The translations under genes and the position numbers were made by a program. Below, one piece after another: positions 1,622 to 34,692 of a stretch of 64,000 nucleotides of DNA (the stretch's first letter is position 1; the number at the start of each line of letters is the position of its first letter). This stretch comes from Rubrobacter xylanophilus. GTDB taxonomy: Bacteria; Actinomycetota; Rubrobacteria; Rubrobacterales; Rubrobacteraceae. The notes under the pieces were generated by a model. It was given only the letters and a program-made list of their open reading frames with translations. It was not told where the DNA came from and ran no database searches. The stretch spans positions 2,467,501-2,531,500 of the forward strand of contig NZ_AP019791.1 in NCBI RefSeq assembly GCF_007164525.1, read 5' to 3'.

Positions 1622-2152
1622 GAAGGGGTGCTCCAGGAGGCTCTCGTAGTACACGCCCGAGGGACCCTGGGCGCTCCTCATCAGGTGTAGCGCTCCGGCG
1701 GTGAAGCCTGGGATCTCGCGGTCCGGCTCCACGGTCTCCAGTCGCGTCGGACGCCCGCGGGCGCGGCCGAGGGTGAGATGAGCCCGGAAGGGGCGGCGTT
1801 CGCGCTCGAAGCCCAGAGGGGAGAGCGCCTCCTCCACCGCCGCGGCCAGCTCCTCCAGGCGTTCGGAGCCCTCCCCGATTCCGGCCCAGAGGACGCGCGC
1901 CCTCTCCGGGGAGGGGAAGGCACCGAAGCCCTCGGGCTCGATGCGGAAGGGGTGCTCCAGGCGGGCGACCTCCGAGAGAGCGGCGGACATCCGGGGGATA
2001 AGGTCCTCCGGGACCTCGCCGAGGAACTTCAGGGTCAGGTGGATGTTCTCCGGGCGCACCCAGCGCACCCCGATCACCGGCAGGGAGCGGGCCGCGCGGG
2101 AGAGGGCCTCCCGGACCTCCCGCGGGGGGAGGATCGCTACGAAGGCCCGCAT
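1610..2152 (-). CDS. thpR: RNA 2',3'-cyclic phosphodiesterase (LigT/ThpR)
   Basis: This 180-aa protein has the two HxTx motifs of the 2H phosphoesterase superfamily: HLTL at about 38-41 and HLTL at about 125-128. Enzymes of this family open 2',3'-cyclic phosphates on RNA ends to 2'-phosphates and also show 2'-5' RNA ligase activity in vitro. Length and motif spacing are standard for ThpR. Its start overlaps the end of larB by 16 nt, so the two are probably co-transcribed, though no functional link is known. Confidence 0.9.
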   Translation of the reverse strand: MRAFVAILPPREVREALSRAARSLPVIGVRWVRPENIHLTLKFLGEVPEDLIPRMSAALSEVARLEHPFRIEPEGFGAFPSPERARVLWAGIGEGSERLEELAAAVEEALSPLGFERERRPFRAHLTLGRARGRPTRLETVEPDREIPGFTAGALHLMRSAQGPSGVYYESLLEHPFSER

Positions 2153-6154: not shown

Positions 6155-7573
6155 ATGGTGCTGCTGCGGGACGCAAGGCTCTCCGGCGCGATAGCGGCGG
6201 CCCGGGCGGCCCGGGTCGCGAGCCGGCTGCTGCGAGCCGGGGGCGGCTCCACCGTTCCCGGCGTGGTCGCGAGGAGGGTCGACCCGTACGTCCTGCAGGC
6301 CCTCTCCGAGCGGCTGCCGCGTGGAGCGGTGGCCGTGACCGGGACCAACGGCAAGACCACCACCGCCCGGATGGCGGGCGCCATCCTGCGCGCGGCCGGC
6401 GTCCGCACGGTCAGCAACTTCACCGGGGCGAACCTGGTGACCGGGGTCACCGCGGCGCTCGTCGCGGACTCGGACCTCGCCGGCAGGCCCGCCGCGGAGA
6501 TGGGGCTCTTCGAGGTGGACGAGGCGAGCGTCCCGAGGGTGGCGTCCGAAACGAGGCTGCGCCTGCTCGCCGTCCTGAACCTCTTCCGGGACCAGCTCGA
6601 CCGCTACGGGGAGCTGACCCACACCGCCAAGGTGATAGCCTCCGCCTTCGGGCACCTGCCGCCCGGGGCGGCGGTGCTCCTGAACGCCGACGACCCGCTG
6701 GTGGCGAGCCTCGGGCGCTCGGCCGCGCGCCCGCTCTACTACGGGGTGGACGAGCCGGCCCTCGACACCGGGCGCCTGCAGCACGTGGCGGACTCCAAGG
6801 ACTGCCCCCTCTGCGGGGCTCCGCTCTCCTACTCGGCGGTGTATATGGGACACGTCGGGGTCTACCGGTGCGGCCGCTGCGGCTTCGGGCGGCCGGAGCC
6901 GGCCTACCGGGCGCGCCGGGTGCGCCTGCAGGGGGCCCGCGGCACCACGTTCGTCCTCTCCGGCCCGGCGGGGGAGAGGGAAGTACGCCTGCAGCTCCCC
7001 GGCCTCTACAACGTGTACAACGCGCTGGCCGCCGCCGCGGTCGCTGGGGAAGCCGGCGCCGGGATGGAGCACGTCGTCCGGGGGCTCGAGGGCTTCGGGG
7101 GCGCCTTCGGGCGGGTCGAGAGGGTTCGGGCCGGGGACAGGGAGGTCTTCCTGCTGCTCATAAAGAACCCCGTGGGGTTCAACGAGATCCTGCGCACCTT
7201 CATCGCCGGGGGCGACGCCCGGCACGTGCTCATCGTCATAAACGACAAGGATGCCGACGGCCGGGACGTCTCCTGGCTGTGGGACGTGGATCTCGAGATG
7301 CTCGCCGCGGCCCGCGACCGGGGACTGCTCTCGGAGATGCAGCCGATCATGGCCGGCGGCCTCCGGGCAGAGGACATGGCCGTGCGGCTGAAGTATGCCG
7401 GGCTGCCGGTGGGCGAGGTCGTCCCGGGCTGCGACCAGGCTCTGCGCCGGGCTCTGAACACGACCCCGCCCGGGGAGACCCTGTACGTGCTCCCGACCTA
7501 CACCGCCATGCTGGAGATCCGGCGCGCCTTGAGCGAGATGGGATACACCCACCCCTTCTGGGAGGACCGTTGA
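6155..7573 (+). CDS. murT: Lipid II isoglutaminyl synthase, MurT subunit
   Basis: This 472-aa Mur-ligase-like protein has the P-loop TGTNGKTT (about 62-69). A four-cysteine zinc ribbon (Cys 217, 220, 239, 242) is inserted in the central domain, and the C-terminal domain carries DKDADGRD (about 364-371), matching the catalytic-Asp region of Staphylococcus MurT. With GatD it amidates the alpha-carboxylate of D-Glu in lipid II to D-isoglutamine in the cytoplasm, using ATP and glutamine. gatD overlaps it by 4 nt. The start is set by the consensus -10 box just upstream. Confidence 0.95.
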   Translation: MVLLRDARLSGAIAAARAARVASRLLRAGGGSTVPGVVARRVDPYVLQALSERLPRGAVAVTGTNGKTTTARMAGAILRAAGVRTVSNFTGANLVTGVTAALVADSDLAGRPAAEMGLFEVDEASVPRVASETRLRLLAVLNLFRDQLDRYGELTHTAKVIASAFGHLPPGAAVLLNADDPLVASLGRSAARPLYYGVDEPALDTGRLQHVADSKDCPLCGAPLSYSAVYMGHVGVYRCGRCGFGRPEPAYRARRVRLQGARGTTFVLSGPAGEREVRLQLPGLYNVYNALAAAAVAGEAGAGMEHVVRGLEGFGGAFGRVERVRAGDREVFLLLIKNPVGFNEILRTFIAGGDARHVLIVINDKDADGRDVSWLWDVDLEMLAAARDRGLLSEMQPIMAGGLRAEDMAVRLKYAGLPVGEVVPGCDQALRRALNTTPPGETLYVLPTYTAMLEIRRALSEMGYTHPFWEDR

Positions 7574-8319
7574 AGCTCACCATCCACCACCTCTACGCCG
7601 ACATGATGAACCTCTACGGGGACCGGGGGAACGTGCTCTCCATAAAGAAGCGCTGCGAGTGGCGCGGCATCCCCGTGGAGGTCGTGGACGTGGGGGTGGG
7701 GGAGCCCATCCGCCCCACCGGCTGCGACGTCTTCCTCTTCGGCGGCGGTCAGGACAGGGAGCAGGCACTCCTGGCCGGGGATCTGGCCGGGAAAAAGGGC
7801 GCTGAGCTCAGGGCCATCGTGGAGGACGGCGGGGTGGTCCTGGGGGTGTGCGGCGGCTACCAGCTGATGGGACACAGCTACGAGACCCCGGAGGGAGAGA
7901 AGCTGCCGGGCATCGGCGTCTTCGATTTGCACACCGAGCCCCGCAGGCCCGGGGAGGAGCGCCTGATCGGGAACGTCCTCGTCCGGGTGGAGCTCGGGGG
8001 CGAGAGCCGCGAGCTCGTCGGCTTCGAGAACCACGGCGGGCGCACCTACCTGGGGGACGTGGAGCCTTTGGGGACCGTGCTGTACGGGCACGGCAACAAC
8101 GGCAGGGACGGCACCGAGGGCGCCCGGCGCCTCAATGCCTACGGCACCTACCTGCACGGCTCGCTCCTGCCCAAGAACCCCTGGTTCACCGACCACCTCA
8201 TCCTGAGCGCGCTGCGGAGGGTCGACGATTCCTTCGAGCTCGAGCCGCTGGACGACACGCTCGAGAGGCGGGCCTTCGAGGCGATGGCCTCCCGCCTCCG
8301 CGGCAGGGGGGGCTCCTAG
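7570..8319 (+). CDS. gatD: Lipid II isoglutaminyl synthase, GatD glutaminase subunit
   Basis: A 249-aa class I glutamine amidotransferase-like protein. The nucleophile is Cys 94 in GVCGGYQ, and His 196 in YLHGSLL is the likely partner; the Cys position is the same as in Staphylococcus GatD. It hydrolyses glutamine and hands ammonia to MurT for lipid II amidation. The TTG at 7570 overlaps the murT stop and is preceded by GGGAGG, so translation is probably coupled. The matched pair makes the assignment firm. Confidence 0.95.
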   Translation: MKLTIHHLYADMMNLYGDRGNVLSIKKRCEWRGIPVEVVDVGVGEPIRPTGCDVFLFGGGQDREQALLAGDLAGKKGAELRAIVEDGGVVLGVCGGYQLMGHSYETPEGEKLPGIGVFDLHTEPRRPGEERLIGNVLVRVELGGESRELVGFENHGGRTYLGDVEPLGTVLYGHGNNGRDGTEGARRLNAYGTYLHGSLLPKNPWFTDHLILSALRRVDDSFELEPLDDTLERRAFEAMASRLRGRGGS

Positions 8320-8759
8320 ACCTCTCGCCGCGGCCAGTCCCCGCGGAGGCGTTGCCAGCGCTCCCTGAGGTGACCGGTGGCGTCCTCGTAGTGGGGGTGG
8401 GTGAAGGTCGGGCCGCCGGGAAACTCCGTCACCGTCACCTCGCCCTCCACCGAAGAGTGCTCTTCCGCCAGCGCCTCGCTGGCCTCCAGTTCGGCCATCA
8501 GCTCCGGGGCGTCGGGGGGCTCGAGCTCGTCTATGCGCTTGACGTACAGCCTGCCCCGCCGCAGCAGGTAGACGTAGCCCTTCTCCGCCAGCTCCCTGTC
8601 GCGGCGGGCGTGTTCATCGCCATGGAAGACCCCGAGCAGGGAGACCATCTCCGGGCTCTGCCGCTCCTCGAGCTCTTGCCGGTAGTAGGCCAGAAGGTCC
8701 TCCCAGAACGCCCGCTGCTCCTCGTTCAGCACCTCGCCCACCTCCCGGAAGCGTATCAC
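8316..8759 (-). CDS. Hypothetical protein, acidic and soluble
   Basis: A 147-aa protein convergent with gatD, overlapping it by 4 nt. It is predicted to be mostly helical with many Glu and Arg residues, with an N-terminal helix NEEQRAFWEDLLAYY and a segment GYVYLLRRGRLYVKRIDE that looks like a beta hairpin. No membrane segment, signal peptide or known catalytic motif is seen. Codon use matches the surrounding genes. I do not recognise the family and assign no function. Confidence 0.55.
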   Translation of the reverse strand: MIRFREVGEVLNEEQRAFWEDLLAYYRQELEERQSPEMVSLLGVFHGDEHARRDRELAEKGYVYLLRRGRLYVKRIDELEPPDAPELMAELEASEALAEEHSSVEGEVTVTEFPGGPTFTHPHYEDATGHLRERWQRLRGDWPRREV

Positions 8760-8810
8760 CCCTCGTGTTGTGGGGACTTGCGTTTCCGGTCGCGGCGGGT
8801 TTGAAACCTC

Positions 8811-9521
8811 CTAGAAGCGCTCCACCGAGGGCCTCAGGTCCAGCTCCAGCGTCCAGGCGTCCGGCGGCTGGGAGTGCAGCTGCCAGTAGGTCTCGGCTAT
8901 GCTCTCCGGGGAGAGCATCGTGTGCGCCTCGCGCCCCGGGTACCGCCGCCGGACCTGCGGGGTGTCTATCTGGCCGTCGATGACGACGTGGGCCACGTGC
9001 ACCCCCCGCGGGCCGAACTCGCGGGCCATCGACTGCGCCAGCGCCCGCAGCCCGAACTTCCCCACCGCGAGCGCCGCGAACTTCGCCGAGCCGCGCAGCG
9101 AGGCGGTCGCCCCGGTGAGCAGGACCGTCCCGCGCCCCTTCTCCGCCATCGCGGGGAGCACCTCGCGGGCCGCATAGAAGGCCCCGGCGCAGTTGATCCT
9201 CCAGCACTCCTCGAACCTCCCGGGGGTGATCTCCAGGATGCCGCCCGGCTGGAAGGCCCCGGCGTTGTACACGAGCACCTCCGGGTCGCCGAGCTCCTCC
9301 CTTACCCGCCGGAAGGCGGCGGCGACCGAGGAGGGATCTGAGGCGTCGGCGGGAATGGCCGACGCCGTGCCTCCGGCTGCTTCTATCTCCTCGCGCACCG
9401 GCTCCAGGCTCTCCCGGCGGCGCACCATGAGCGCGACCGCGTAGCCCCCGCGGGCGAAGCGGCGGGCCACGGCGGCCCCGAGCCCCGGGCCCACCCCGAC
9501 CACCGCCGCGACCCCGCTCAC
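8811..9521 (-). CDS. Short-chain dehydrogenase/reductase-like protein lacking the catalytic Tyr
   Basis: A 236-aa Rossmann protein with a cofactor loop (GVGPGLG near 9-15) and YNAG (85-88). At the catalytic site the usual Tyr-x3-Lys reads Leu-x3-Lys (about 151-155, in FAALAVGK), so the general acid/base of classical SDRs is missing. It may bind NAD(P) without normal oxidoreductase activity, or use another residue. The GTG start overlaps the end of the upstream dehydratase by 4 nt and has a GAGGGG site, so it is the last gene of a three-gene minus-strand operon. Confidence 0.75.
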   Translation of the reverse strand: MSGVAAVVGVGPGLGAAVARRFARGGYAVALMVRRRESLEPVREEIEAAGGTASAIPADASDPSSVAAAFRRVREELGDPEVLVYNAGAFQPGGILEITPGRFEECWRINCAGAFYAAREVLPAMAEKGRGTVLLTGATASLRGSAKFAALAVGKFGLRALAQSMAREFGPRGVHVAHVVIDGQIDTPQVRRRYPGREAHTMLSPESIAETYWQLHSQPPDAWTLELDLRPSVERF

Positions 9522-22579: not shown

Positions 22580-23851
22580 CTAGAGCAGGTTCCCTGCTGC
22601 GTCGAAGCGCATCGGGCGCGGGTCTTCGAGGACCCGGAGCCCGGGCTCCGCCTGTCCCAGCAGCGCTTCGGAGACCCACATCCGACGCAGGCTGAGGGTG
22701 TTGCGGATGCGCACCAGGCGGGCCTCTGCGGGCTCCACACCGGCGCACATCAGGAGGGCCGCGGCGATGGCCTCGCGGTCGGTCTCCATCACCATCGGGG
22801 TCTTCACCGTGTCGGGGACGGTGGAGGTCAGGGCGTTCATGTAGGTGGCGGAGCGGTCCATCCTGCGCTCGAGGCGGGAGGTGATCACGTCCGAGAGCCC
22901 CACCCCGTTGGCGTTGCCGCCGGTCTCCTCGGTGAGGTCCAGGAAGACCATCCGCCCGACCTTCGGTCCGCCGGAGGCGTAGGGGGTGGGGTAGCGTCCG
23001 GTTACGTTGGGGTCTGCCCCGTCGCCGGAGATGTTCTTCCCGATCTCGTCCACCACCAGCACGTCCAGCTCGTCGAAGGGGAGGCGCGGCAGGTTCCTCT
23101 TGGCCTCCTTGAGGAGCGGAGTCTCGGCCTCGATCAGCCGCTCTGCCGGGAGGGCGACGACCCTGCAGGGTTCTTCGTCGGCGTTCTCCAGCGTGGCGAG
23201 CGCGAAGGCGACCTTCCCGGCCCCGACGGCTACCCGGGCGGCCTCCGGGATGGTGCGGTGGATGTTCTCCCAGCCCGCCGCGTGGATCGCGTGCGCCCCC
23301 CGTTGCTTGCCGAGCCCGATGGCGAGCATCTTCGAGGGCCCGCTCTCCACGGCGCCGCGGAAGGCGGTGTGCGGTTTGATGCGGTTGACCACGACCACCG
23401 CGTCCGCCTCGGAGGCCAGCCGGTCCATGTAGACCGGGACGCCGGAGGGGGTGCGCCCTACCTCCACCGTCTCCATCGTGGCCCGCACCGGACACCCCAC
23501 CCGCTCCTCGCTCACGCCCAGGTGCGCCAGCACTTCCGCCTGGCCCCCGGCGGTGGAGGCGCCGTGGCTGCCCATCGCCGGCACGATGAACGGCTCCGCC
23601 CCGGCCTCCTTCAGGGCCTCCACCAGGGCCGCCACGATCTCCGCGATCCGGGCCACGCCCCGGCTGCCGACGCCTATGGCGACGGAGCCCTTTGGCAGCT
23701 CCACCTCTTCCAGCGCCTCCCGCACCGCCGCCCGGACGTCCCCGAGGGCGGGCGGAGAGGCTATCCGCTGCTCCACGAGCGCAACCCGCGGTGGCTCCAC
23801 GGCCTCGAGAAGCCGCCGGATCTCCTCGCGAACCGGACTTGCCGTCTGCAT
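22580..23851 (-). CDS. LarA-like nickel-pincer hydroxy-acid racemase/epimerase homologue (paralogue 1)
   Basis: A 423-aa protein of the DUF2088/LarA superfamily. Residues in the right order for the LarA active site are visible: His 96 in MGSHG, His 161 in RIKPHT, Lys 174 in SGPSKM, and His 190. The Lys-to-His spacing of 16 equals that of Lys 184 and His 200 in Lactobacillus LarA, which tether the cofactor and bind nickel. It probably racemises or epimerises a 2-hydroxy acid. Start ATG 23851, with GGGGTGAGG upstream. It is divergent from lutABC. Confidence 0.82.
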   Translation of the reverse strand: MQTASPVREEIRRLLEAVEPPRVALVEQRIASPPALGDVRAAVREALEEVELPKGSVAIGVGSRGVARIAEIVAALVEALKEAGAEPFIVPAMGSHGASTAGGQAEVLAHLGVSEERVGCPVRATMETVEVGRTPSGVPVYMDRLASEADAVVVVNRIKPHTAFRGAVESGPSKMLAIGLGKQRGAHAIHAAGWENIHRTIPEAARVAVGAGKVAFALATLENADEEPCRVVALPAERLIEAETPLLKEAKRNLPRLPFDELDVLVVDEIGKNISGDGADPNVTGRYPTPYASGGPKVGRMVFLDLTEETGGNANGVGLSDVITSRLERRMDRSATYMNALTSTVPDTVKTPMVMETDREAIAAALLMCAGVEPAEARLVRIRNTLSLRRMWVSEALLGQAEPGLRVLEDPRPMRFDAAGNLL

Positions 23852-23915
23852 CGCCTCACCCCCGCAAAGACGCTTCGCAGCGCCCATTCTACCCGCATCC
23901 TGCCCTGCTATACTC

Positions 23916-23924
23916 CGCTCTGCG
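23916..23924 (+). promoter_or_regulatory. Extended -10 promoter TGC-TATACT for lutABC
   Basis: TGCTATACT ends 19 nt before the lutA ATG. Transcription would start near 23931, just ahead of the GGGAGGA ribosome-binding site. No clear -35 is seen, as is usual for extended -10 promoters. Confidence 0.5.
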
Positions 23925-23943
23925 ACCAGAGGCGGGAGGAACT

Positions 23944-24684
23944 ATGAGGGTGGCCCTTTTCATACCGTGCTACGTGGACCTCGTGAGCCCGGAGGTCGGG
24001 GTGAGCGTGGTGCGCGTGCTGCGTTCGCAGGGCGTCGAGGTCTTCTACCCGGAAGGTCAGACCTGCTGCGGCCAGCCGGCCTTCAACTCCGGCTTCTTCG
24101 AGGAGGCGCGCGGCGCGGCCCGGCACTTTCTCGACGTGTTCGGGGGGGAGCGCTTCGACTACGTCGTCTGCCCCTCCGGGTCGTGCACCACGATGGTCTC
24201 CCACTACTACCCATTCCTCTTCCGGGAGCTGCCGGAGGAGCTGGAGCGGGCCGAGGGGATCGGGGGGCGGGTGAGGGAGTTCTCGGACTTCCTCGCCAAC
24301 GTGCTCGGCACCGAGGAGTTCGGGGCCCGGTTCGAGGGCCGGGCGGTCTTCCACTGCGGGTGCCACCAGCGGCGCGAGCTGGGGGTGCTGGAGGAGCCGC
24401 AGAGGATCCTGCGCAACGTCGAGGGTCTCGAGCTCGTGGGGTGGGAGAACGAGGAGCTCTGCTGCGGCTTCGGAGGGACCTTCTCCGTCAAGATGCCCGA
24501 GGTTTCCGTGGCGATGGCCGACGAGAAGATAAGGGCGCTGGAGAAGAGCGGGGCGGACACCCTCGTCTCCTGCGACCCGAGCTGCCTGCTGCACCTGAAG
24601 GGACGGCTCGACCGGACCGGCCACGGCACCCGGGTGCTGCATCTGGCGCAGGTACTGGACCCCAGGCGAGGGAGGGTTGGATAG
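23944..24684 (+). CDS. lutA: Lactate-utilisation protein LutA (CCG-domain subunit)
   Basis: A 246-aa protein with two cysteine-rich CCG domains: TCCGQPAFN with VVCPSGSC, and HCGCHQRR with LCCGFGG and SCDPSC. Such domains bind non-cubane or heterodisulfide-reductase-like iron-sulfur clusters. In Bacillus, LutA works with LutB and LutC to oxidise L-lactate and feed the respiratory chain. The order lutA, lutB, lutC is intact here. Start ATG with GGGAGGA upstream. The substrate may be a hydroxy acid other than lactate, given the neighbours. Confidence 0.92.
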   Translation: MRVALFIPCYVDLVSPEVGVSVVRVLRSQGVEVFYPEGQTCCGQPAFNSGFFEEARGAARHFLDVFGGERFDYVVCPSGSCTTMVSHYYPFLFRELPEELERAEGIGGRVREFSDFLANVLGTEEFGARFEGRAVFHCGCHQRRELGVLEEPQRILRNVEGLELVGWENEELCCGFGGTFSVKMPEVSVAMADEKIRALEKSGADTLVSCDPSCLLHLKGRLDRTGHGTRVLHLAQVLDPRRGRVG

Positions 24685-24688
24685 CGGC

Positions 24689-26146
24689 ATGGAGAAGACC
24701 GGCACCGAGGAGAGGGCCCGTCGTGAGGGGCTCGCGAGCGGGGTCGAGGGCTTCAACGGGCGGGCGCGGCGGGCGCTCGCCGACCCCGAGTTGCACGACT
24801 CCATAGCGCTCTTCACCCGCAAGACCCTCAAGGGCCGCGCCGCCCGGCTGGCCGAGCTTCCGGATGCCCCCGAGCTCAGGGAGCGGGCCTACCACATAAA
24901 GCAGGAGACGATGGCCAACCTCGACCGCTACCTGGGGCAGATGGCCGACGCGGTCGAGGCGCGGGGCGGCAACGTCTTCTTCGCCGAGACCGGCGAGGAC
25001 GTGGTCCGCTACGTCGGGGAGCTGGCGCGCGAGAAGGGCGCGAAGGTCATCACCAAGTCCAAGAGCATGGCCACCGAGGAGATAGAGCTCAACCGCCGCC
25101 TCGAAGAGGAGTACGGCGAGCTGGGGCTCGAGGTGGTCGAGACCGACCTCGGGGAGTGGATCGCGCAGCTCGCCGGGGATGCCCCCTCCCACATCGTGGC
25201 CCCCATCATGCACATGAACCGCCACCAGATCGCCCGGGTGCTCTCCGGGGTGGCCGGGGAGCCGCTGCCGCCGGACGTCAAGGCGCTCGCGGGCTTCGCC
25301 CGCCGGAGGCTCCGGGAGAAGTTCCTCGCGGCGGACATCGGGATCTCGGGGGCCAACTTCGGGGTGGCGCAGACGGGCACCGTCTGCCTCGTCACCAACG
25401 AGGGCAACGGGCGGCTGGTCACCAGCGTCCCGCCGGTGCACGTGGTGGTGATGGGCATCGAGAAGCTGGTGCCGCGCTTCGAGGATCTTGAGGTCTTCGT
25501 GCAGCTTTTGGCGCGCAACGGCACCGGCCAGAAGCTCACGGTCTACACCAGCTTCATCACCGGCCCGCGCGGGGCGGACGAGCTGGACGGTCCGGAGGAG
25601 TTCCACCTGATCCTGATGGACAACGGCCGCTCGAAGCTGCTCGGCACCGAGTTCGAGGAGGCGCTCTACTGCATCCGGTGCGGCTCGTGCCTGAACGTCT
25701 GCCCGGTCTACCGGCAGACCGGCGGCCACGCCTACGGCTCCACCTACTCGGGCCCGATAGGCGCGGTGATCACGCCGCTGCTCAAAGGGGACCGGGAGGC
25801 GAAGGACCTGCCGCACGCCTCCTCGCTGTGCGGCGCCTGCTGGGAGACGTGCCCGGTGGGGATCCCGCTGCACGACTTGCTGCTGAAGCTCCGAAACCGG
25901 CAGGTGGATGAAGGGCTCGCTGGGAAGGCGCAGGAGATAGCCTTCAAGGGCTTCGAAGAGGCGGTGGAGCGCCCGGCGCTCTACCGGGCCGGAGCGCGGC
26001 TGGGGCGCGTCGCCCAGCGGCCGCTGGTCCGGGACGGCTCCGTGCGCCGGCTCCCGCCGCCGCTGAGCGGCTGGACGGACTTCCGGGATCTCCCCCCGCT
26101 CGCCGAGAGATCCTTCCGGGAGCTGTGGCGGGAGGGGATAGATTGA
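24689..26146 (+). CDS. lutB: Lactate-utilisation protein LutB (iron-sulfur LUD protein)
   Basis: About 485 aa. An N-terminal LUD domain (KSKSMATEEIELN, ADIGISGANFGVAQTGT) is followed by a ferredoxin-like 4Fe-4S region with CIRCGSCLNVCPVY and CGACWETCPVG. It is the electron-carrying core of the LutABC complex on the cytoplasmic side of the membrane. A TTG at 24677 would add four residues but sits directly against GGAGGG, so the ATG at 24689 is preferred. The C-terminus overlaps lutC by 4 nt. Confidence 0.93.
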   Translation: MEKTGTEERARREGLASGVEGFNGRARRALADPELHDSIALFTRKTLKGRAARLAELPDAPELRERAYHIKQETMANLDRYLGQMADAVEARGGNVFFAETGEDVVRYVGELAREKGAKVITKSKSMATEEIELNRRLEEEYGELGLEVVETDLGEWIAQLAGDAPSHIVAPIMHMNRHQIARVLSGVAGEPLPPDVKALAGFARRRLREKFLAADIGISGANFGVAQTGTVCLVTNEGNGRLVTSVPPVHVVVMGIEKLVPRFEDLEVFVQLLARNGTGQKLTVYTSFITGPRGADELDGPEEFHLILMDNGRSKLLGTEFEEALYCIRCGSCLNVCPVYRQTGGHAYGSTYSGPIGAVITPLLKGDREAKDLPHASSLCGACWETCPVGIPLHDLLLKLRNRQVDEGLAGKAQEIAFKGFEEAVERPALYRAGARLGRVAQRPLVRDGSVRRLPPPLSGWTDFRDLPPLAERSFRELWREGID

Positions 26147-26811
26147 GGCGAAAGGAGTTCCTGGAGAACATCCGGCACCGCACCCGCTCCGGCCGCTACC
26201 AGCCCACCAGAGCCCCCGATGCCTCCTGGACGCCCGGCCGGCGGGCCGCCGCGGCGCGCGAGGTCGGGGATCCTCCGTCCCGCTTTCTGGAGGAGCTCGC
26301 GGCCCTCGGCGGCCACGGGCGGCGCGTGAAGGACCTGGAGGGAGCCCGGGACTACGTAGTGGAGCTGGCGCGGGAGCGCGGGGCGCGGCTGCTCGTCCGG
26401 TGGGACGTGGAGGAGCTGGAGCGGCTCGGGGCCGACGGCCCGCTCCGGGAGGCGGGGGTGGAGGTGGCCGTCTGGCGGGATCTCGAAGATTTCCGGGAGG
26501 TGGCCGGCCGGGCGGACATCGGGCTCTCCACCGCCGAGTGGGCCATCGCCGAGACCGGGAGCCTGGTCCTGGAGAGCGGGCCCGGGAAGGGACGCACCGT
26601 GGCGATCCTGCCGCCGGTCTACGTGGCGGTGGTGCCGGTGGAGCGGCTCGTCCGGACGGTCCCCGAGGCCATAAGGATGTACGCCGGGCGGGGCTCACTG
26701 CCGCAGAACCTCTGCTTCCACACCGGGCCCAGCCGTTCGGGGGACATAGAGCAGTCGCTGGCCACCGGGGTGCACGGTCCCGGCGAGGTGCACGTGCTGC
26801 TTCTGGGCTAG
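26143..26811 (+). CDS. lutC: Lactate-utilisation protein LutC (LUD domain)
   Basis: A 222-aa LUD-domain protein (ADIGLSTAEWAIAETGSLV, GPGKGRTVAILPPVYVAV, GPSRSGDIEQSL). The TTG at 26143 overlaps the lutB stop and follows GGGAGGGG, so expression is coupled. LutC lacks cysteine clusters and completes the LutABC dehydrogenase. It is followed within 3 nt by the HpcH-type aldolase, which suggests that the oxidised product or a related keto-acid is cleaved next. Confidence 0.9.
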   Translation: MRRKEFLENIRHRTRSGRYQPTRAPDASWTPGRRAAAAREVGDPPSRFLEELAALGGHGRRVKDLEGARDYVVELARERGARLLVRWDVEELERLGADGPLREAGVEVAVWRDLEDFREVAGRADIGLSTAEWAIAETGSLVLESGPGKGRTVAILPPVYVAVVPVERLVRTVPEAIRMYAGRGSLPQNLCFHTGPSRSGDIEQSLATGVHGPGEVHVLLLG

Positions 26812-26814
26812 AGG

Positions 26815-27564
26815 ATGGTGCGGCGGAACCCCCTCAGGGAGCTCTGGGAGCGGGACCGGACGGCGTTCGGCCTGTGGGCCACCGTGCCGGGCTCCTTCGG
26901 GGCCGAGCTGCTCGCCGGGGCCGGCTTCGACTACCTGTGCGTGGACCAGCAGCACGGGGTGCTGGACTATGCGGCGATGGTCCCCATGCTCCAGGCGGCG
27001 CGGGCGGCCGGGGCGGCCCCGCTCACCCGGGTGCTCTCGGGCGATCCCGCGCTCGTGACCAAGGCGCTCGACGCCGGGGCGTGGGGCGTGATCGTGCCTC
27101 TGGTCTCCGATGGCGCGGCGGCGGCCCGGGTGGTGTCCGCCTGCCGGTTTCCGCCGCGCGGGAGCCGCTCCTACGGGCCGGTGCGGGCCGCGGAGGTCAT
27201 CGGCTCCTCTGATCCTGGGGTGGTGGAGCGGGAGGCGCTGTGCTTCGTGATGGTCGAGACCGCCGAGGGGGTAGGGAACGTGGAGGAGATAGCGGCCACC
27301 CCTGGGCTGGATGGGATCTACATCGGCCCCGCCGACCTCTCGCTCTCCCTCGGCTCCGGGGAGCTGGAGCGGGCCGTGGGGCGCATAAGGGAGGCGTGCG
27401 AGGACGCGGGGATAGTCCCCGGCATCCACTGTTTCTCCGGCGAGGAGGCCCGCCGCCGGGCGGAGGAGGGCTTCCGGCTCGTCACCGTCACCTCCGACGC
27501 GGCCCTCCTGCGGGAGGGGGCCCGGCGGGAGCTCGCGGCGGCCCGCCGGGCCCCCTCCCGTTAG
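26815..27564 (+). CDS. HpcH/HpaI-family class II aldolase
   Basis: A 249-aa TIM-barrel aldolase with FDYLCVDQQHGVLD, VMVETAEGVGN (metal-binding Glu), and GIYIGPADLSLSLG (metal-binding Asp). The family cleaves 2-keto-3-deoxy acid sugars or 4-hydroxy-2-oxo acids to pyruvate and an aldehyde. It directly follows lutC, so pyruvate-yielding cleavage linked to hydroxy-acid oxidation is plausible. It would also suit the keto-deoxy acids made by the dehydratases at 9.5-15.1 kb. Confidence 0.88.
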   Translation: MVRRNPLRELWERDRTAFGLWATVPGSFGAELLAGAGFDYLCVDQQHGVLDYAAMVPMLQAARAAGAAPLTRVLSGDPALVTKALDAGAWGVIVPLVSDGAAAARVVSACRFPPRGSRSYGPVRAAEVIGSSDPGVVEREALCFVMVETAEGVGNVEEIAATPGLDGIYIGPADLSLSLGSGELERAVGRIREACEDAGIVPGIHCFSGEEARRRAEEGFRLVTVTSDAALLREGARRELAAARRAPSR

Positions 27565-27662: not shown

Positions 27663-29126
27663 CTACCCCCCGAGGATGTTCGTCTGGATCTGGTCGTAGA
27701 CCAGATACACCGAGAAGAACCCGAAGAACAGGAACGAGATGATCATCGCCACGAGGCGCACGCCCCGGATCTTTATCGGGTCGGGCAGCGCCACCCGGTT
27801 CAGCCAGATGAGCAGCCCCGAGTAGATGAACATCATCACCCCGGCTATGGAGGAGGAGATCACCAGCAGGATCAGGGGCTGCTCCATGCCGCTGATGAGG
27901 ATGATGGAGCCCACGATGATCATGAGCCACACGAAGGAGGCGTACAACCGGCTCTCGGACCAGAACTGGCTCTCCCGGAGGGCGTTGACCTTGAGCTGGT
28001 CCGCTATGAGGCGGCAGGTGTAGTCGATGATACCCAGGTTGGTCGAGAAGAGCACGAAGGTCCCGGTGAGCCAGAACGCGATCCCGAACCACGGCGCGAT
28101 CCGCTCGGAGAGCACCTCGCCCTCGGTCCTGATGAAGTCGAAGCTCTGCTCCTCGACCTGTCCGACCGGCAGGATCGAGTAGGCGAGCACCGAGAGGATG
28201 ATGAGGGTGGTGACCCCGATGAGGAAGAAGGTGATGAACTGCTCCTGGTTCGCCACCCGCCACCAGCCCCGCCAGCGGCGCATGTTCTCCTCGTCGGTGC
28301 GGAACATGTAGCCGAGGGAGGGCACCGCCTGCTCCTCGCCGGTGAACGGGGAGACGATCTTGGGGATGCGCGCCCCCATCCCCATGTCCTTGTCCCGGAT
28401 GTAGTTGCTCTGCACCAGGTTGTTGGCCCCGCCGGCGCCGGCGAACGCCAGCGCACCGAGGAGCAGCGCCGCTCCGAGACCCTCCTCGCCTATGGGGATC
28501 CTCGGGAAGTTGGCGAAGCCGGTGACGAGGTCGCCCCACGCCTCCAGACGGGTCGCCATGAAGATCGACGCGACGAGGAAGATGACGATCAGGGTGACGA
28601 TGACGAACTGGATCTTTTCCACCGCGTCGTAGACGACCGGCGAGAGGGTGAGCGCGAGCCCGATGGCGATGAGCGCCGCCACCGTGATCGGGACGACCGC
28701 CCCCTCACCGAGCCCGAAGACGAAGGTGAGCGTCGTGGAGGAGCCGGTCGCCCAGCCGGGCCAGAAGTTCTGGAATAGAGCGAAGAGTATGAACAGCCAC
28801 CACCACGGCTTCCACAGCCGGGCAAAACCCGTGATCGCGCTCTCGCCGGTGGCGAGCGTGTAGCGCTCCACCTCCATGTTGATGAAGAACTGGATCAGGA
28901 ACCCTACCACCGCACCCCACATGAACACGAGCCCTATCTGCGAGGTGATGTAGGGCCAGAGTACGTACTCCCCGCTCCCGAGCGCCGTGGCGAGGATGAT
29001 GACGCTGGCCCCGACCACCCGCCGCAGCGGGACGGGCTCCGGAAGGTCCTGGTATGTTACCGGCGGTAGATACTTGCTTGGCAGCTCGGCTGCAAAACCT
29101 CCCTCGCGGCTTGCCGTGTCGGCCAC
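27663..29126 (-). CDS. Divergent Nramp-fold membrane transporter
   Basis: A 487-aa protein with about eleven membrane segments and the overall plan of Nramp transporters. The metal-binding motifs are changed: the DPGN site in the first helix reads GSGE (TALGSGEYVLWP), and the MPH site in the sixth reads LVQ (GGANNLVQSNY). A divalent metal is therefore unlikely as substrate. Between hydroxy-acid genes, an organic acid is a reasonable guess. GTG start with AAAGGAGG upstream and its own promoter at 29178-29207. Confidence 0.82.
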   Translation of the reverse strand: MADTASREGGFAAELPSKYLPPVTYQDLPEPVPLRRVVGASVIILATALGSGEYVLWPYITSQIGLVFMWGAVVGFLIQFFINMEVERYTLATGESAITGFARLWKPWWWLFILFALFQNFWPGWATGSSTTLTFVFGLGEGAVVPITVAALIAIGLALTLSPVVYDAVEKIQFVIVTLIVIFLVASIFMATRLEAWGDLVTGFANFPRIPIGEEGLGAALLLGALAFAGAGGANNLVQSNYIRDKDMGMGARIPKIVSPFTGEEQAVPSLGYMFRTDEENMRRWRGWWRVANQEQFITFFLIGVTTLIILSVLAYSILPVGQVEEQSFDFIRTEGEVLSERIAPWFGIAFWLTGTFVLFSTNLGIIDYTCRLIADQLKVNALRESQFWSESRLYASFVWLMIIVGSIILISGMEQPLILLVISSSIAGVMMFIYSGLLIWLNRVALPDPIKIRGVRLVAMIISFLFFGFFSVYLVYDQIQTNILGG

Positions 29127-29177
29127 GTTCTCCCTCCTTTTCCCTTACTCTACGGAAGCCTCCCCGGCCTCTGATCC

Positions 29178-29207
29178 ATCTTAGAGGAAGTGGTAAGACA
29201 AAGTCAA
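29178..29207 (-). promoter_or_regulatory. Promoter TTGACT-N18-TAAGAT for the Nramp-like gene
   Basis: On the minus strand TTGACT (29207-29202) and TAAGAT (29183-29178) are 18 bp apart. Transcription would start about 45 nt before the GTG at 29126. This separates the transporter pair from the PanE-like gene upstream. Confidence 0.6.
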
Positions 29208-29214
29208 AGGGTCT

Positions 29215-30219
29215 TCAGGTGGCGAGGGAAGCGAGCTCCCGGAGCTTCTCGGGGGAGGGCGAGTCGGCTCCCTCCTCCATCCTGTGGACGAGCCGGAGGA
29301 CGTGCTCGTTGAGCGGCGCGGGCACCCCGTGCTCCCGGGCCTTCTCCACGACGCCGCCGTTGATGACGTCCACCTCCGTCTTGAGACCACGCTCCAGATC
29401 CTGGAGCATCGAGGCCTTGGTGGCCCCCACGTGGCGCATCACCTCTCGCACCGCCTCCTCCGCCCTCCTGCCGCCCGCCGCGAGCTCCTCCGCCGGGACG
29501 CCCACGAAACGCTCCAGCCTGAGCCCCTGCGCCTTCCCCACCTCGTAGCCCTCCCGCCACACCGCCAGCGCCGCCTCCAGCCCGGCGCGCGAGGCCACCA
29601 CCTCCCGGTAGAGCAGCCCCGAGACCGCCCCCAACCCGGAGAAGGTGCTGTTGACCAGCAGCTTGGTCCACACCTGCCCCCGGACGTTGCGCGTGAGGTG
29701 CACTTCGAAGGCCGTCCCGAGCGCCGCCGCGAGCCGGCGGGTGCGCTCCCGCACGCTCCCGTCCGGCTCGCCGACCACGAAGGGTGCCCGGGTGGTGCGC
29801 GCCAGATGCCCCGGCCCCAGGTTGGTCGCCCCCCACTCCACCGTCCCGACGATGAGGTTCTCCTCCCCGACGAGGCGGGCCACCCGCTCCTGCACCAGCC
29901 CGTTGCCCAATGAGACGTAGGCCCGGGCGAGCTCCCGCTCCACCAGCGGCGCGAGCGCCGCCTCCAGGTGCGGCGCCTTGACCGTCACGAGGGCGAAGTC
30001 GAAGGGGCCGTCCGGCTCCGCGGGGTCGGCGTATGCCTCGAGCCGCACCCGCCGCTCGGTGCCCAGGTCGTCGAGCAGGAGCCCGGGGTCGCGCATCCTC
30101 GCGGCGTGCTCCCGGTTCGCGTCCAGCACCGCCACCCGCCGCACCCGGCCCGCGAGCAGCGCCGCCGTCGCCCCGCCGATGGCGCCCCCGCCGACGACCA
30201 GGATCTCCGCCTCGCTCAC
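29215..30219 (-). CDS. PanE/ApbA-family 2-keto-acid (ketopantoate-like) reductase
   Basis: A 334-aa protein with an N-terminal Rossmann motif GGGAIGGATAALLAG, a conserved VTVKAPHLE strand-turn, and the C-terminal helical domain with KLLVNSTFSGL, where the catalytic Lys of ketopantoate reductase resides. It reduces a 2-keto acid or oxidises a 2-hydroxy acid with NADPH or NAD. It overlaps the BKACE gene by 4 nt and lies far from pantothenate genes, so it is more likely a catabolic homologue than true PanE. Confidence 0.8.
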   Translation of the reverse strand: MSEAEILVVGGGAIGGATAALLAGRVRRVAVLDANREHAARMRDPGLLLDDLGTERRVRLEAYADPAEPDGPFDFALVTVKAPHLEAALAPLVERELARAYVSLGNGLVQERVARLVGEENLIVGTVEWGATNLGPGHLARTTRAPFVVGEPDGSVRERTRRLAAALGTAFEVHLTRNVRGQVWTKLLVNSTFSGLGAVSGLLYREVVASRAGLEAALAVWREGYEVGKAQGLRLERFVGVPAEELAAGGRRAEEAVREVMRHVGATKASMLQDLERGLKTEVDVINGGVVEKAREHGVPAPLNEHVLRLVHRMEEGADSPSPEKLRELASLAT

Positions 30220-31133
30220 CCGGCCACCTCCCCGGCGCCGGCGGGCAGCCTTCCCCTCTCCCTGCCGCGCAGCCCCAGCATCTCCCGCGCCTCCTGCGGG
30301 GTGGCCACCCGCCGCTCCAGCTCCCGCGCGATGCGTACCGTGCGCTCCACCAGCTGCGCGTTGTTTTCGAGGAGCTCCCCTCTGCGGTAGTAGACGTTGT
30401 CCTCCATCCCTACCCGCACGTTCAGGCCCATCGCCAGGGCCATGGTGGTTATCGGGAGTTGCGTCGGCCCCATCGAGGAGACGTTGATGCGCAGCTCCTC
30501 CCGCCTCACCGGCAGCTCGTCCAGGCGCTGGAGCATGTCGAAAAGGTTCCTCGGGGTGCCCCGCTGGCCGCCCTGGGTGGGGGTATGCAGCACGAGGTTG
30601 ATCGTGTACGGCGGCTGCAGGATGCCCAGAGAGAGCAGGTGGGCGACCTCCTCCAGCATCGCGCTGCTGTAGACCTCCAGCTCCGGCTTTATGTTTCGGG
30701 CGGCGATCTCGCGGGCGAAGCGCTCGATGTCCGAGCGGTGGTTGGCGAAGAAGACCTGCTCGCCCCGGATGAAGAAGTTCAGAAGCCCCATGTTCAGCGA
30801 GCACATCTCCGGGCAGAGGTAGACGGTGTTCAGGCGCTCCTCCACGGAGAGCACCGGGCTCCCCCCGGTGGTCAGCTGCACGACGGCGTCGGTCTCGGCG
30901 CACAGCCGCTCGTGCAGCTCCGAGTAGATCGCCGGGTCCATCGTGTTGGAGCCGTCGGGGTTCCTGGCGTGCACGTGCAGGATGGCCGCCCCCGCCTCCC
31001 ACGCCGCAACGCCCTGTTCGACGATCTCGTCGGGCTGCTCGGGGAGGTTGGGGTTGGCCTCCTTGCCGTGGATGCCTCCGGTCAGGGCGCAGGTGATGAT
31101 CACGGGGTCGTTTCTCGGGACGGCGTTGAGCAA
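30216..31133 (-). CDS. BKACE (beta-keto acid cleavage, DUF849) family enzyme
   Basis: About 305 aa from the TTG at 31133, which follows GAGGAGGAGG with good spacing; an upstream TTG at 31202 has no such site. It is a TIM barrel with the zinc ligands of the family: HVH in ILHVHARN and Glu in VGMEDN. BKACE enzymes condense a beta-keto acid with acetyl-CoA and split it to acetoacetate and a new CoA ester, as in lysine fermentation and carnitine breakdown. The substrate here is unknown. The PanE-like partner could make or use the keto acid. Confidence 0.85.
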   Translation of the reverse strand: MLNAVPRNDPVIITCALTGGIHGKEANPNLPEQPDEIVEQGVAAWEAGAAILHVHARNPDGSNTMDPAIYSELHERLCAETDAVVQLTTGGSPVLSVEERLNTVYLCPEMCSLNMGLLNFFIRGEQVFFANHRSDIERFAREIAARNIKPELEVYSSAMLEEVAHLLSLGILQPPYTINLVLHTPTQGGQRGTPRNLFDMLQRLDELPVRREELRINVSSMGPTQLPITTMALAMGLNVRVGMEDNVYYRRGELLENNAQLVERTVRIARELERRVATPQEAREMLGLRGRERGRLPAGAGEVAG

Positions 31134-31243
31134 GGCCTGCCTCCTCCTCTCCAGAGAGATCTCCCTCGGTGCCAAACTACCCCCGGGGCCTGGGAGGGTC
31201 AAGCCCCGGCCGCTGTGGTAAACATGGTACGAGGGGATGTGAG

Positions 31244-32413
31244 GTGCGCTTCGCGATAGTCGCCGACGACCTGACGGGGGCCATGGACTCCGGCGTCCAG
31301 CTCGCCGGGGCCGGCTACCGGACGGCCGTCGCCCTTGAGGGCGTGCCGCTCCCGCCCGCCCCGGAACTCGACGCCGTGGTGGCGGATACGGGCTCCCGGA
31401 CGCTTTCCCCCGATGAGGCCGCCTCGCGGGTGAAGAGGGCTGTCGGGGCGCTCGGCGGGGCGGGGATCCTCTACAAGAAGATCGACTCCACGCTGCGCGG
31501 GCCGATCGGCGCCGAGGTGGAGGCCGCGCTCGCCGCCTCGGGCCGGGCGGCCGCCCTGATCTGCCCGGCCTTCCCTGCGGCCGGGCGCACCACCCGCGGC
31601 GGGATGCAGCTCGTCCGCGGGGAGCCGGTCGAGCGCACCGGTTTCGCCCGCGACCCGCGCACCCCGGTGCTGACCTCCAGCTTGACCTCCCTCATACCCG
31701 GGGTCGGGGCGGTGTTGGGGACGGAGGAGCTCTCGGATCCCACCCGCGTCCGCGGTGCCCTCCGCCGACACCGGCTGGTGGCGGCGGATGCGGAGACCGA
31801 AGCCCACCTCGCCGCGCTCGTGCGCGCGGTCCCGGACCCCTCGGAGGTGCTCTGGGTGGGCTCCGCGGGGCTCGCCCGGGCGCTCGCCGAGGTGTATCCC
31901 GGTCCCCGCGCTCCCGGAGGGCCGCTGCCCGCGGCGGAGCGGGTGGTCGCGGCGGTGGGCAGCAGAAACGAGATGTCCCTGCGGCAGCGGGAGCTGCTCG
32001 CGGCCGAGCCCGGGGTGGTCGAGGTGGTGGTCCGGGGGGACGGTGGCGGGTCGGTGCGGGCCGCGATCCGGGCGCTCGCGGCGGGGGCGCGCTGCGCACT
32101 GCTGCGTCCGGAGGACGCGGCGGGCGACCCGGAGGCCGTGCTTCGGGTTCTGGGCGGGGCCGCCGCCGGGCTCGCACGCTCCTTCCCCGGGACCGGGCTC
32201 ATCCTCACCGGGGGCGACACCGCCGCCGCGGTGGCGCGCGGGCTCGGCGCGGGCGGCATCCTGGTGTTGCGGGAGCTCGAGCCCGGGGTCCCGATCGGGG
32301 TGCTCCTCGGGCCGCATCCCTGTCCGGTGGTCACCAAGGCCGGGGGATTCGGGAGGGACGGGACGCTCAGGGACGCTATGGGGCTGCTGCTGGGTGAGAG
32401 GAGTCCGGCGTGA
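31244..32413 (+). CDS. Four-carbon acid-sugar kinase family protein (DUF1537)
   Basis: A 389-aa protein with the N-terminal substrate domain (FAIVADDLTGAMDSGVQLA, YKKIDSTLRGPIG, PAFPAAGRTTRGG) and the C-terminal nucleotide-binding domain (LILTGGDTAAAV, GPHPCPVVTKAGGFG) of D-threonate/D-erythronate kinases (DtnK/DenK/OtnK). It phosphorylates a C4 sugar acid at the 4-OH. The next gene, PdxA2-like, overlaps it by 4 nt. The pair normally converts threonate or erythronate to dihydroxyacetone phosphate and CO2. Confidence 0.9.
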   Translation: MRFAIVADDLTGAMDSGVQLAGAGYRTAVALEGVPLPPAPELDAVVADTGSRTLSPDEAASRVKRAVGALGGAGILYKKIDSTLRGPIGAEVEAALAASGRAAALICPAFPAAGRTTRGGMQLVRGEPVERTGFARDPRTPVLTSSLTSLIPGVGAVLGTEELSDPTRVRGALRRHRLVAADAETEAHLAALVRAVPDPSEVLWVGSAGLARALAEVYPGPRAPGGPLPAAERVVAAVGSRNEMSLRQRELLAAEPGVVEVVVRGDGGGSVRAAIRALAAGARCALLRPEDAAGDPEAVLRVLGGAAAGLARSFPGTGLILTGGDTAAAVARGLGAGGILVLRELEPGVPIGVLLGPHPCPVVTKAGGFGRDGTLRDAMGLLLGERSPA

Positions 32414-33420
32414 GCGCGCCGCTCGTGGCGCTCACCATGGGGGATCCGGCCGGCATTGGGCCGGAGATCGTCGCCAGGGCCTTCGCCGAGGAGGGCTTCT
32501 GCCGGGAGAACCGGGTCGTCGTGGTCGGGGACCGGGCGATACTGGAGCGCGCCGTGCGGCTCCTCGGCCTCCCGCTGCGCGTCAACGCGGTCTCTGACCC
32601 CGGCGAGGCGTGCTTCGAGCCGGGTACCGTGGACGTGCTCACGGAGACCGAGCTCCCCGAAGACCTGCCGTTCGGCGAGCTGGACGCCCGCGCCGGGGAC
32701 GCAGCGTTCCGGTACGTGCGGCGGGCCGTGGAGCTGGCGCTGGAGGGGCGGGTGGCGGCGGTCGCCACCGCGCCCCTGAACAAGGAGGCGCTGCACCTGG
32801 CGGGCCACAGGTACCCGGGGCACACCGAGATCCTGGCCGACCTCACCGGCACCCGCGACTACGCGATGATGCTCGTCGCCGAGGCCGCCCCTTCGGCGCT
32901 GCGCGTGATCCACGTCTCCACCCACGTCTCTTTGAGGGAGGCCATCGAGCGCGTCGAGCCGGAGCGGGAGCTGACGGTCATCCGGCTGGCCCAAGGGGCG
33001 ATGCGCCGGATCGGGATCGAGCGCCCGCGCGTGGCCGTAGCCGGGCTCAACCCGCACGCGGGGGAGAACGGCCTCTTCGGTACCGAGGACGCCGAGAAGA
33101 TAAGGCCCGCCGTCGAGCGGGCGCGGAAGGAGGGCATCGAGGCGAGCGGCCCCTGGCCGCCGGACACGGTGTTTTTGCGGGCCCGCCAGGGGGAGTTCGA
33201 CATCGTGGTGGTGCAGTACCACGACCAGGGGCACATCCCGGTGAAGCTTCTGGGCTTCGAGGGCGGGGTGAACGTGACGGTGGGGCTGCCGTTCTTCCGC
33301 ACGAGCGTGGACCACGGCACGGCCTTCGACATCGCCGGGACGGGGAAGGCCGACCATTCGAGCCTGCTGGCGGCGCTCGCGCTGGCGCGGGAGCTTGCGG
33401 GATCCGAGGAGAGGAGCTAG
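32410..33420 (+). CDS. pdxA2: PdxA2-type 4-phospho-acid-sugar dehydrogenase
   Basis: A 336-aa PdxA-family protein with the opening LTMGDPAGIGPE, the metal-site His in GHRYPGHTE, and later His residues in VQYHDQGHIP and FFRTSVDHGTAFD. Together with an acid-sugar kinase immediately upstream, it is the PdxA2 type: it oxidises and decarboxylates 4-phospho-threonate or erythronate to dihydroxyacetone phosphate, rather than making pyridoxal phosphate. The GTG overlaps the kinase stop. Confidence 0.9.
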   Translation: MSAPLVALTMGDPAGIGPEIVARAFAEEGFCRENRVVVVGDRAILERAVRLLGLPLRVNAVSDPGEACFEPGTVDVLTETELPEDLPFGELDARAGDAAFRYVRRAVELALEGRVAAVATAPLNKEALHLAGHRYPGHTEILADLTGTRDYAMMLVAEAAPSALRVIHVSTHVSLREAIERVEPERELTVIRLAQGAMRRIGIERPRVAVAGLNPHAGENGLFGTEDAEKIRPAVERARKEGIEASGPWPPDTVFLRARQGEFDIVVVQYHDQGHIPVKLLGFEGGVNVTVGLPFFRTSVDHGTAFDIAGTGKADHSSLLAALALARELAGSEERS

Positions 33421-33423
33421 GAG

Positions 33424-34692
33424 ATGCGTCTTCCCAGGGTGGTCAGGGTGAGGCAGGAGTTCCCGAGGCCGCGCGTCGGGAACGTGGGGGCGGCGCTCCG
33501 GGAGGAGCTTGGCCGGGAGGAGATCCGGGCCCGGATAGAGCCGGGGGCGAGCGTCGCGATAACGGCCGGGAGCCGCGGCATCTCGAACATCGCGGAGATC
33601 CTGCGCACGCTGGTCGCCCTCTTGAAGGAGGCGGGCGCGGAGCCGTTCGCCGTGCCGGCGATGGGCAGCCATGGCGGGGCGACGGCGGAGGGGCAGGTGG
33701 AGATCCTCGCCTCTTTGGGCGTCACGGAGGGGTACGTCGGGGCGCCCATCCGCTCCTCGATGGAGGTCGTCGAGCTGGGGCGGACGGGGCGCGGCATCCC
33801 GGTGTTTATGGACCGGATCGCCTCGGAGTCGGACGGCGTCGTGCTGGTGAACCGCATAAAGCCGCACACGGACTTCCACGCGGGCGTGGAGAGCGGGCTC
33901 TTGAAGATGGCCTCCATAGGCCTCGGCAAGCACGCGCAGGCCCTCGCCCTGCACGCCCACGGCGTCCCCGGCATCCGGGACCACATGGTCGAGGTCGGGA
34001 AGGCCATGCTCGCCTCGGGCAAGGTTCTCTTCGGCGTCGGTATCGTCGAGAACGCCTACGAGGAGACGGCGGTGATCGAGGCGATCCCACCAGAGCGCAT
34101 CCCGGAGCGCGAGGCGGAGCTCCTCGAGGAGTCGGCGCGCCTGATGCCGAAGCTGCCCGTCGAGGAGATGGACGTGCTCTTCGTGGACGAGCTCGGCAAG
34201 AACTACAGCGGCACGGGGATGGACACCAACGTGATCGGGCGCTTCCGCATCCTCGGGGTGGAGGAGCCGGAGAGCCCGAGGGCGAGGTACGTGATCGTGA
34301 GCGACCTCAGCGAGGCCTCCCACGGCAACGCCCTGGGCGTCGGTCTTGCGGACTTCACCACGAGGAGGCTCTTCGAGAAGATAGACTTCCGCGCCACGAA
34401 CGAGAACGTCCTCACCAGCACGTTCGTCGAGCGGGGCAAGATCCCGATGGTGATGGAGAGCGACCGCGAGGCGCTCGAGGCCGCAATTAGGTGCAACTGG
34501 GGCGTCCCGCCGGAGGAGACCCGCTTCGTCCGCATACCGAACACGCTGCACCTCCGCGAGCTCTACCTCTCGGAGAACCTGCTGGAGGAGGCCCTCGCGA
34601 GCGGCCGCGTGGAGGTGGTCGAGGGCCCGCGCGAGATGGCCTTCGACGGGGAGGGGAACCTGTTGCCTTTCACCCGGGCGGCCGCGGCTTGA
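33424..34692 (+). CDS. LarA-like nickel-pincer hydroxy-acid epimerase homologue (paralogue 2)
   Basis: A 422-aa DUF2088/LarA-superfamily protein. Active-site candidates are His 83 in MGSHG, His 148 in RIKPHT, Lys 161 in SGLLKM and His 177. The Lys-His spacing of 16 matches LarA Lys 184/His 200 and equals that in paralogue 1. It begins 3 nt after PdxA2 with a TAGGAG site, so it belongs to the acid-sugar kinase operon. A C2 epimerase that feeds a C4 acid sugar (for instance erythronate and threonate) to the kinase fits this context. Confidence 0.84.
   Translation: MRLPRVVRVRQEFPRPRVGNVGAALREELGREEIRARIEPGASVAITAGSRGISNIAEILRTLVALLKEAGAEPFAVPAMGSHGGATAEGQVEILASLGVTEGYVGAPIRSSMEVVELGRTGRGIPVFMDRIASESDGVVLVNRIKPHTDFHAGVESGLLKMASIGLGKHAQALALHAHGVPGIRDHMVEVGKAMLASGKVLFGVGIVENAYEETAVIEAIPPERIPEREAELLEESARLMPKLPVEEMDVLFVDELGKNYSGTGMDTNVIGRFRILGVEEPESPRARYVIVSDLSEASHGNALGVGLADFTTRRLFEKIDFRATNENVLTSTFVERGKIPMVMESDREALEAAIRCNWGVPPEETRFVRIPNTLHLRELYLSENLLEEALASGRVEVVEGPREMAFDGEGNLLPFTRAAAA

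Follow-up and report, generated by a model that had tools for sequence, protein, structure and literature searches.

Erythronate and threonate arise from the breakdown of erythrose phosphate, ascorbate, and erythritol; D-erythronate (2R,3R) and D-threonate (2S,3R) have C3 in common and differ solely at C2. To our knowledge, few nickel enzymes have been identified, and most LarA groups are still without a substrate. In the D-threonate pathway, as outlined in the accounts of Zhang et al. 2016 within PMC9997740 and PMC10971088, the kinase DtnK and the dehydrogenase PdxA2 take the C4 acid to dihydroxyacetone phosphate. Other enzymes described for C4 acid catabolism are LtnD, OtnI, OtnK, and OtnC, with no nickel-dependent epimerase among them (PMC12540250). 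On the side of the LarA family, the chemistry of the NPN cofactor is already known, as is the name of group 22. For example, GntE2 (LarAH20, Thermotoga maritima Q9WYS3, 4nar) is a D-gluconate 2-epimerase, and LarAH10, 43, 51, 52, and others carry out the C2 epimerisation of 4-deoxy-threonate/4-deoxy-erythronate, a side activity of these promiscuous enzymes (PMC11770544).

Our analysis of 64,000 nucleotides of the Rubrobacter xylanophilus genome (the window) points to a locus that, unlike the DtnK/PdxA2 pathway as described, adds a candidate nickel-dependent epimerase to the kinase and dehydrogenase. The features concerned are as follows.

31244–32413, plus strand: DUF1537 four-carbon acid sugar kinase (DtnK-like), GTG start, assigned from Pfam and the nearest solved chains
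32410–33420, plus strand: PdxA2-type dehydrogenase (D-threonate 4-phosphate dehydrogenase-like), nearest chain 6e85, the single PdxA of the genome
33424–34692, plus strand: larA22A, paralogue A of nickel-pincer isomerase group 22 (LarA superfamily), a proposed C2 epimerase of C4 sugar acids
22580–23887, minus strand: larA22B, second group-22 LarA (NF052515, 516.5 bits), linked to LutABC and not to the kinase/PdxA2 pair
2137–2913, minus strand: LarB (cofactor biosynthesis), in the window and far from larA22A, start codon uncertain

The larA22A open reading frame encodes 422 amino acids and is preceded by an AGGAG-like sequence. The original prediction described the three plus-strand genes as contiguous, and the coordinates agree, with a 4-nt overlap between kinase and PdxA2 and a gap of 3 nt between PdxA2 and larA22A. 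MoeA, downstream at 34759, was considered as a further member of this unit and set aside, because it lies 66 nt off and relatives have intervening genes. Between the two larA22 genes, the minus strand (27663–31202) carries a Nramp-type transporter, a ketopantoate-reductase-like gene, and a beta-keto acid cleavage enzyme; the Nramp gene remains close to larA22 genes across many Rubrobacteraceae. We favor, with moderate confidence, a reading in which larA22A is a nickel-pincer C2 epimerase that interconverts D-erythronate and D-threonate ahead of the kinase/PdxA2 pair, the basis being family, fold, invariant residues, cofactor genes, operon, co-occurrence, and recurrence of the three genes together.

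That larA22A is a LarA-family protein, a distant relative of lactate racemase, is confirmed beyond chance. It is a full-length member of the NCBIfam family NF052515 (nickel pincer cofactor-dependent isomerase, group 22), matching at 548.9 bits over residues 3–390 (curated cut-off 400), and this model names no substrate; the Pfam Lar_N domain (PF09861, lactate racemase N-terminal domain) scores 40.1 bits against a cut-off of 23.3. PDB sequence searches with larA22A itself and with a 25-sequence profile returned no significant LarA match, so the kinship with solved LarAs is too remote for sequence search and becomes visible only by structure comparison and profile-profile alignment. In the AlphaFold2 model (pLDDT 82, pTM 0.81), the two-domain LarA fold is predicted to cover the whole protein; the top 18 Foldseek matches were LarA-family chains, followed by a gap, and 12 LarA-family entries aligned with Z 18–21 over 294–327 residues, the next entry standing at 6.0. 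A structural model had been proposed from the outset as a check on the LarA assignment, and at the level of fold the predicted structure agrees with it (Z about 20). Together, NF052515, Lar_N, and the fold bear out the identity that had been read from the sequence, whereas the gene's standing as an isolated novelty falls away, because it belongs to an already-named, functionally blank group. This group presumably corresponds to group 22 of the 2020 survey (PMC7583248). Across the accessible texts, we found no report of a test of larA22A or of an activity for any group-22 protein. A scan of contigs gave only five relatives, and a broader sample was drawn from whole genomes and plasmids.

The active site was predicted to hold His83, His148, Lys161, and His177 in LarA order, and all four are at these positions, with the Lys-His spacing of 16 found between LarA Lys184 and His200. 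Arg51, His83, His148, Lys161, His177, and Lys259 are invariant in the group-22 proteins of bacteria and haloarchaea (76/76). In the profile-profile alignment, whose confident part stops at about residue 157, His83 and His148 pair with the two catalytic histidines of canonical LarAs (His108 and His174). Arg51, Lys161, and His177 were matched to Arg75, Lys184, and His200, the cofactor residues of LarA, on the strength of their motif, order, and spacing, with roles taken from PMC11770544; the interval from His148 to Lys161 is 13 residues, that from LarA His174 to Lys184 being three shorter. Lys259 and Arg273 are conserved around the region of LarA Lys298, where the C-terminal profile alignment is unreliable. 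The complete 3.02-Mb genome also encodes LarB, LarC, and LarE, all over curated cut-offs (for LarB, NF033503, 236.7 bits, cut-off 175, genome positions 2469673–2470302), and larA22A very probably uses the NPN cofactor.

The position of LarA Asp72, on the other hand, is Ala48 in larA22A (window about 33565–33567), and among the 76 group-22 sequences it is Val in 39, Ala in 27, Gly in 6, Leu in 3, and Met in 1, with Asp in none. Such a hydrophobic or glycine position throughout the group counts against the C4 epimerase reading and lowers the claim that larA22A has a canonical LarA active site, although Asp72 belongs to the 2020 catalytic signature and not to the definition of the superfamily. 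Its replacement in all group-22 proteins would also suit the use of NPN for another hydride transfer, such as an isomerisation at a carbon other than C2 or a redox step, and the 2020 survey (PMC7583248) leaves room for different hydride chemistry where a group is missing catalytic residues. This alternative is very unlikely given that both proton-relay histidines and the three cofactor-binding residues are invariant, as inversion at C2 needs, and the larA22A reaction is, with good confidence, a C2 epimerisation. Substrate choice in LarA is thought to depend on the loop behind the second catalytic His (PMC7583248), and because this loop reads Thr-Asp in larA22A (Glu-Ser in GntE2, Phe-Phe in lactate racemase), a polar substrate would be favored. 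The Asp of this pair, Asp150, lies near His148 in paralogue A and is Ala in paralogue B. The genome contains a third Lar_N protein (L058, genome C1:1348000-1366000, 7249–8889, minus strand, TTG start as listed), which is long (546 amino acids) and divergent, with a second catalytic His that is not clear by eye (...MDGGHKSVHTGLS...); it is possibly among the groups reported without this residue.

The partners of larA22A belong to enzyme families of known chemistry. The kinase has both DUF1537 domains over the Pfam cut-offs, PF07005 (SBD_N) and PF17042 (NBD_C), and its best-scoring model is that of D-threonate kinase (NF047819), at 233.8 bits and under the cut-off of 450. Its nearest solved chains are 4xfm/4xgj and 4xfr/4xg0 (about 145 bits), with 1yzy, HI1011, far behind (65 bits); 4xgj contains D-threonate. 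For PdxA, the best-scoring model is D-threonate 4-phosphate dehydrogenase (NF002891), at 401.3 bits and under the cut-off of 583, and the nearest chain is 6e85, a D-threonate 4-phosphate dehydrogenase (373 bits), followed by 2hi1 and 4jqp of the same kind (about 367 bits), as against 204–212 bits for the biosynthetic-type chains 1yxo/1ps6. Judged by these sequence scores, D-threonate-type substrates are likely for both enzymes, which are uncertified in this role because both fall under the curated D-threonate cut-offs, a point that counts against the C4 epimerase reading. A role for the pair in vitamin B6 synthesis or 4-hydroxythreonine recycling was set aside: PdxS is present, PdxJ is absent from the genome, and PdxA is single, so that this PdxA is catabolic and not for vitamin B6. 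No L-threonate dehydrogenase over cut-off was found, and the LtnD route is therefore not evident.

Conservation of the neighborhood in related genomes had been suggested as a check, and the kinase, PdxA, and paralogue A are indeed kept together in Rubrobacteraceae relatives. In all genomes examined, paralogue A occurs with the kinase and PdxA, either directly adjacent, separated by a single alpha/beta-hydrolase gene, or no more than about 6 kb away. PdxA and paralogue A, the latter scored as present if whole or if a contig-end fragment adjoined PdxA, agree in 39/39 Rubrobacteraceae genomes, with both in 23 and neither in 16, some of these absences being in incomplete drafts (Fisher p 2.7e-11, before kinship correction). 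Paralogue B, which is 52% identical to paralogue A and forms a separate clade with full support in the Rubrobacteraceae tree, does not track PdxA, and five of the 16 genomes without PdxA and paralogue A retain B or a third group-22 gene. It could be argued that the neighborhood has been kept by descent alone in Rubrobacteraceae, with no functional link, and one ancestral arrangement is common to most copies. However, the genera coded g3, g4, and g7 each include high-quality genomes with both genes and with neither, a joint presence and absence that, along with copies that have been rearranged and a linkage seen separately in haloarchaea and Synergistota/Oscillospiraceae, makes this explanation scarcely credible. 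In several Rubrobacteraceae, an alpha/beta-hydrolase gene stands between PdxA2 and larA22A (L004 7079–7969, L005 7082–7969, L084 6611–7498), and larA22A is followed in some by a cyclase-family gene; speculatively, this would be consistent with a lactonase acting on C4 aldonolactones.

The same three genes recur in other lineages. For example, in plasmids of Halarchaeum sp. CBA1220 and Haladaptatus salinisoli the genes run larA22-kinase-pdxA and larA22 extends across the kinase start, and in Haladaptatus sp. QDMS2 the trio is loosely grouped. Fretibacterium (Synergistota) and one Oscillospiraceae MAG have it in a single cluster that also holds TctABC transporters. Counting Bacteria and Archaea together, the trio takes three gene orders. 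The lineages bearing it occupy separate places on the maximum-likelihood tree, where well-supported branches force four changes of the trait (three without the loose QDMS2 case). Because the trio recurs on separate branches, the functional tie of LarA22 to kinase/PdxA2 is much better supported than it would be from one operon. Two Synergistota and Oscillospiraceae MAG loci (L007 1163–11045, L008 1740–12440) have nearly the same gene order, namely kinase, Fe-alcohol dehydrogenase, DapA-like aldolase, PdxA, 2-hydroxyacid dehydrogenase, LarA22, and TctB/A/C, a likeness that suggests transfer of an entire acid-catabolism cassette.

Elsewhere, group-22 genes have other company. They adjoin genes for altronate dehydratase, IlvD/Edd, UxaC, and KDGal kinase, which act on C5/C6 acids, often together with LarB/C/E, and LUD-domain proteins are their neighbors in Haloferax gibbonsii, Haloarcula marismortui, Halarchaeum, and Haladaptatus. 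In the window, larA22B is divergent from LutABC and adjoins an ABC sugar transporter (22580–27564: larA22B, LutA, LutB, LutC, and an HpaI-type aldolase), and paralogue B is near LutABC in many Rubrobacteraceae genomes, so the LarA22/Lut partnership recurs across domains. Group 22 may thus comprise sugar-acid epimerases whose substrate is set by branch. Because other members have larger-sugar-acid neighbors, context alone leaves the substrate unfixed; gene association fixes the pathway better than the substrate, which tempers the C4 claim and counts against the C4 epimerase reading. In keeping with this, larA22A might act on another 2-hydroxy acid, perhaps one of greater chain length (pentonate, hexonate, lactate, or glycerate), and its association with kinase/PdxA2 would then reflect only the co-regulation of several sugar-acid genes. 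The UxaA, IlvD/Edd, UxaC, and KDGal enzymes beside group-22 genes would fit, as would the LUD proteins beside the haloarchaeal members and the LutABC, ABC sugar transporter, and HpaI-type aldolase genes within 12 kb of both window paralogues. We nevertheless consider it unlikely, because A and not B tracks PdxA without exception, the same pair recurs in other orders in unrelated lineages, and Asp150 in A, where B has Ala, fits a polar substrate better than lactate.

A further question is whether the acid is free or phosphorylated. It is conceivable, though quite unlikely, that larA22A makes 4-phospho-D-threonate, for removal by PdxA2, by epimerising 4-phospho-D-erythronate that comes from oxidation damage to erythrose 4-phosphate or from the action of a D-erythronate kinase. 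The tie between the presence or absence of larA22A and PdxA would be explained, DUF1537 holds D-erythronate as well as D-threonate kinases (PMC10971088), and Bacillus subtilis has an enzyme that removes 4-phosphoerythronate (PMC7954711). Against it, the characterised LarA homologues use unphosphorylated 2-hydroxy acids (PMC7583248, PMC11770544), and related group-22 genes beside dehydratases and aldolases imply free acids. We regard a free C4 acid as the probable substrate of larA22A. In the C4 epimerase reading, this acid would bind between the two larA22A domains, where His83 or His148 would take the C2-OH proton while the hydride passed to the pyridinium of NPN, itself held by Arg51, by Lys161 (covalently), and by His177 (a nickel ligand); the 2-oxo intermediate would then be reduced to the other epimer. 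The DUF1537 kinase would phosphorylate D-threonate at O4. PdxA2 would then oxidise C3 of the resulting D-threonate 4-phosphate, which would release CO2 and yield dihydroxyacetone phosphate. With the epimerase, both epimers could be served by one kinase/PdxA2 pair, without the LtnD/OtnI/OtnK/OtnC route.

The proposed enzyme resembles GntE2 in its fold (Z 18.2), in the order of its NPN-binding Arg, Lys, and His, in its location in a sugar-acid cluster, and in the C2 epimerisation of a sugar acid, as proposed for larA22A. It differs from GntE2 in sequence (about 13% identity over the structural alignment) and in its partners, because the hexonate route of GntE2 is not known to use DUF1537/PdxA2. 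The 4-deoxy epimerisations of LarAH10 and its counterparts are the proposed larA22A reaction minus one hydroxyl, but larA22A is proposed as a dedicated enzyme. Within NF052515, strict linkage to the DUF1537 kinase and PdxA2 sets the larA22A sub-branch apart. None of the open main texts searched describes a LarA22-DUF1537-PdxA2 module; a comparable link may be listed in Table S1 of PMC7583248. What is new is the strict co-occurrence of paralogue A and PdxA, the paralogue B that does not follow, the recurrence of the trio, and the catabolic PdxA. The original prediction of a pincer-type C2 epimerase in a C4-acid pathway holds as a reading, with a substrate that context does not fix, and gains strength from the strict way in which paralogue A tracks PdxA and from the three arrangements in which the trio occurs. 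There is an even chance that LarA22, the DUF1537 kinase, and PdxA2 constitute an undescribed nickel-dependent three-enzyme route for D-erythronate/D-threonate, assembled several times in Bacteria and Archaea, with LarA22A as the first dedicated C4 sugar-acid epimerase. A group-22 sub-branch locked to two enzymes of known chemistry yields a short, testable list of substrates, the four C4 acids and their 4-phosphates. If this is true, bacteria and haloarchaea would have one more pathway for erythronate and threonate, and new epimerases for rare sugar acids would become available.
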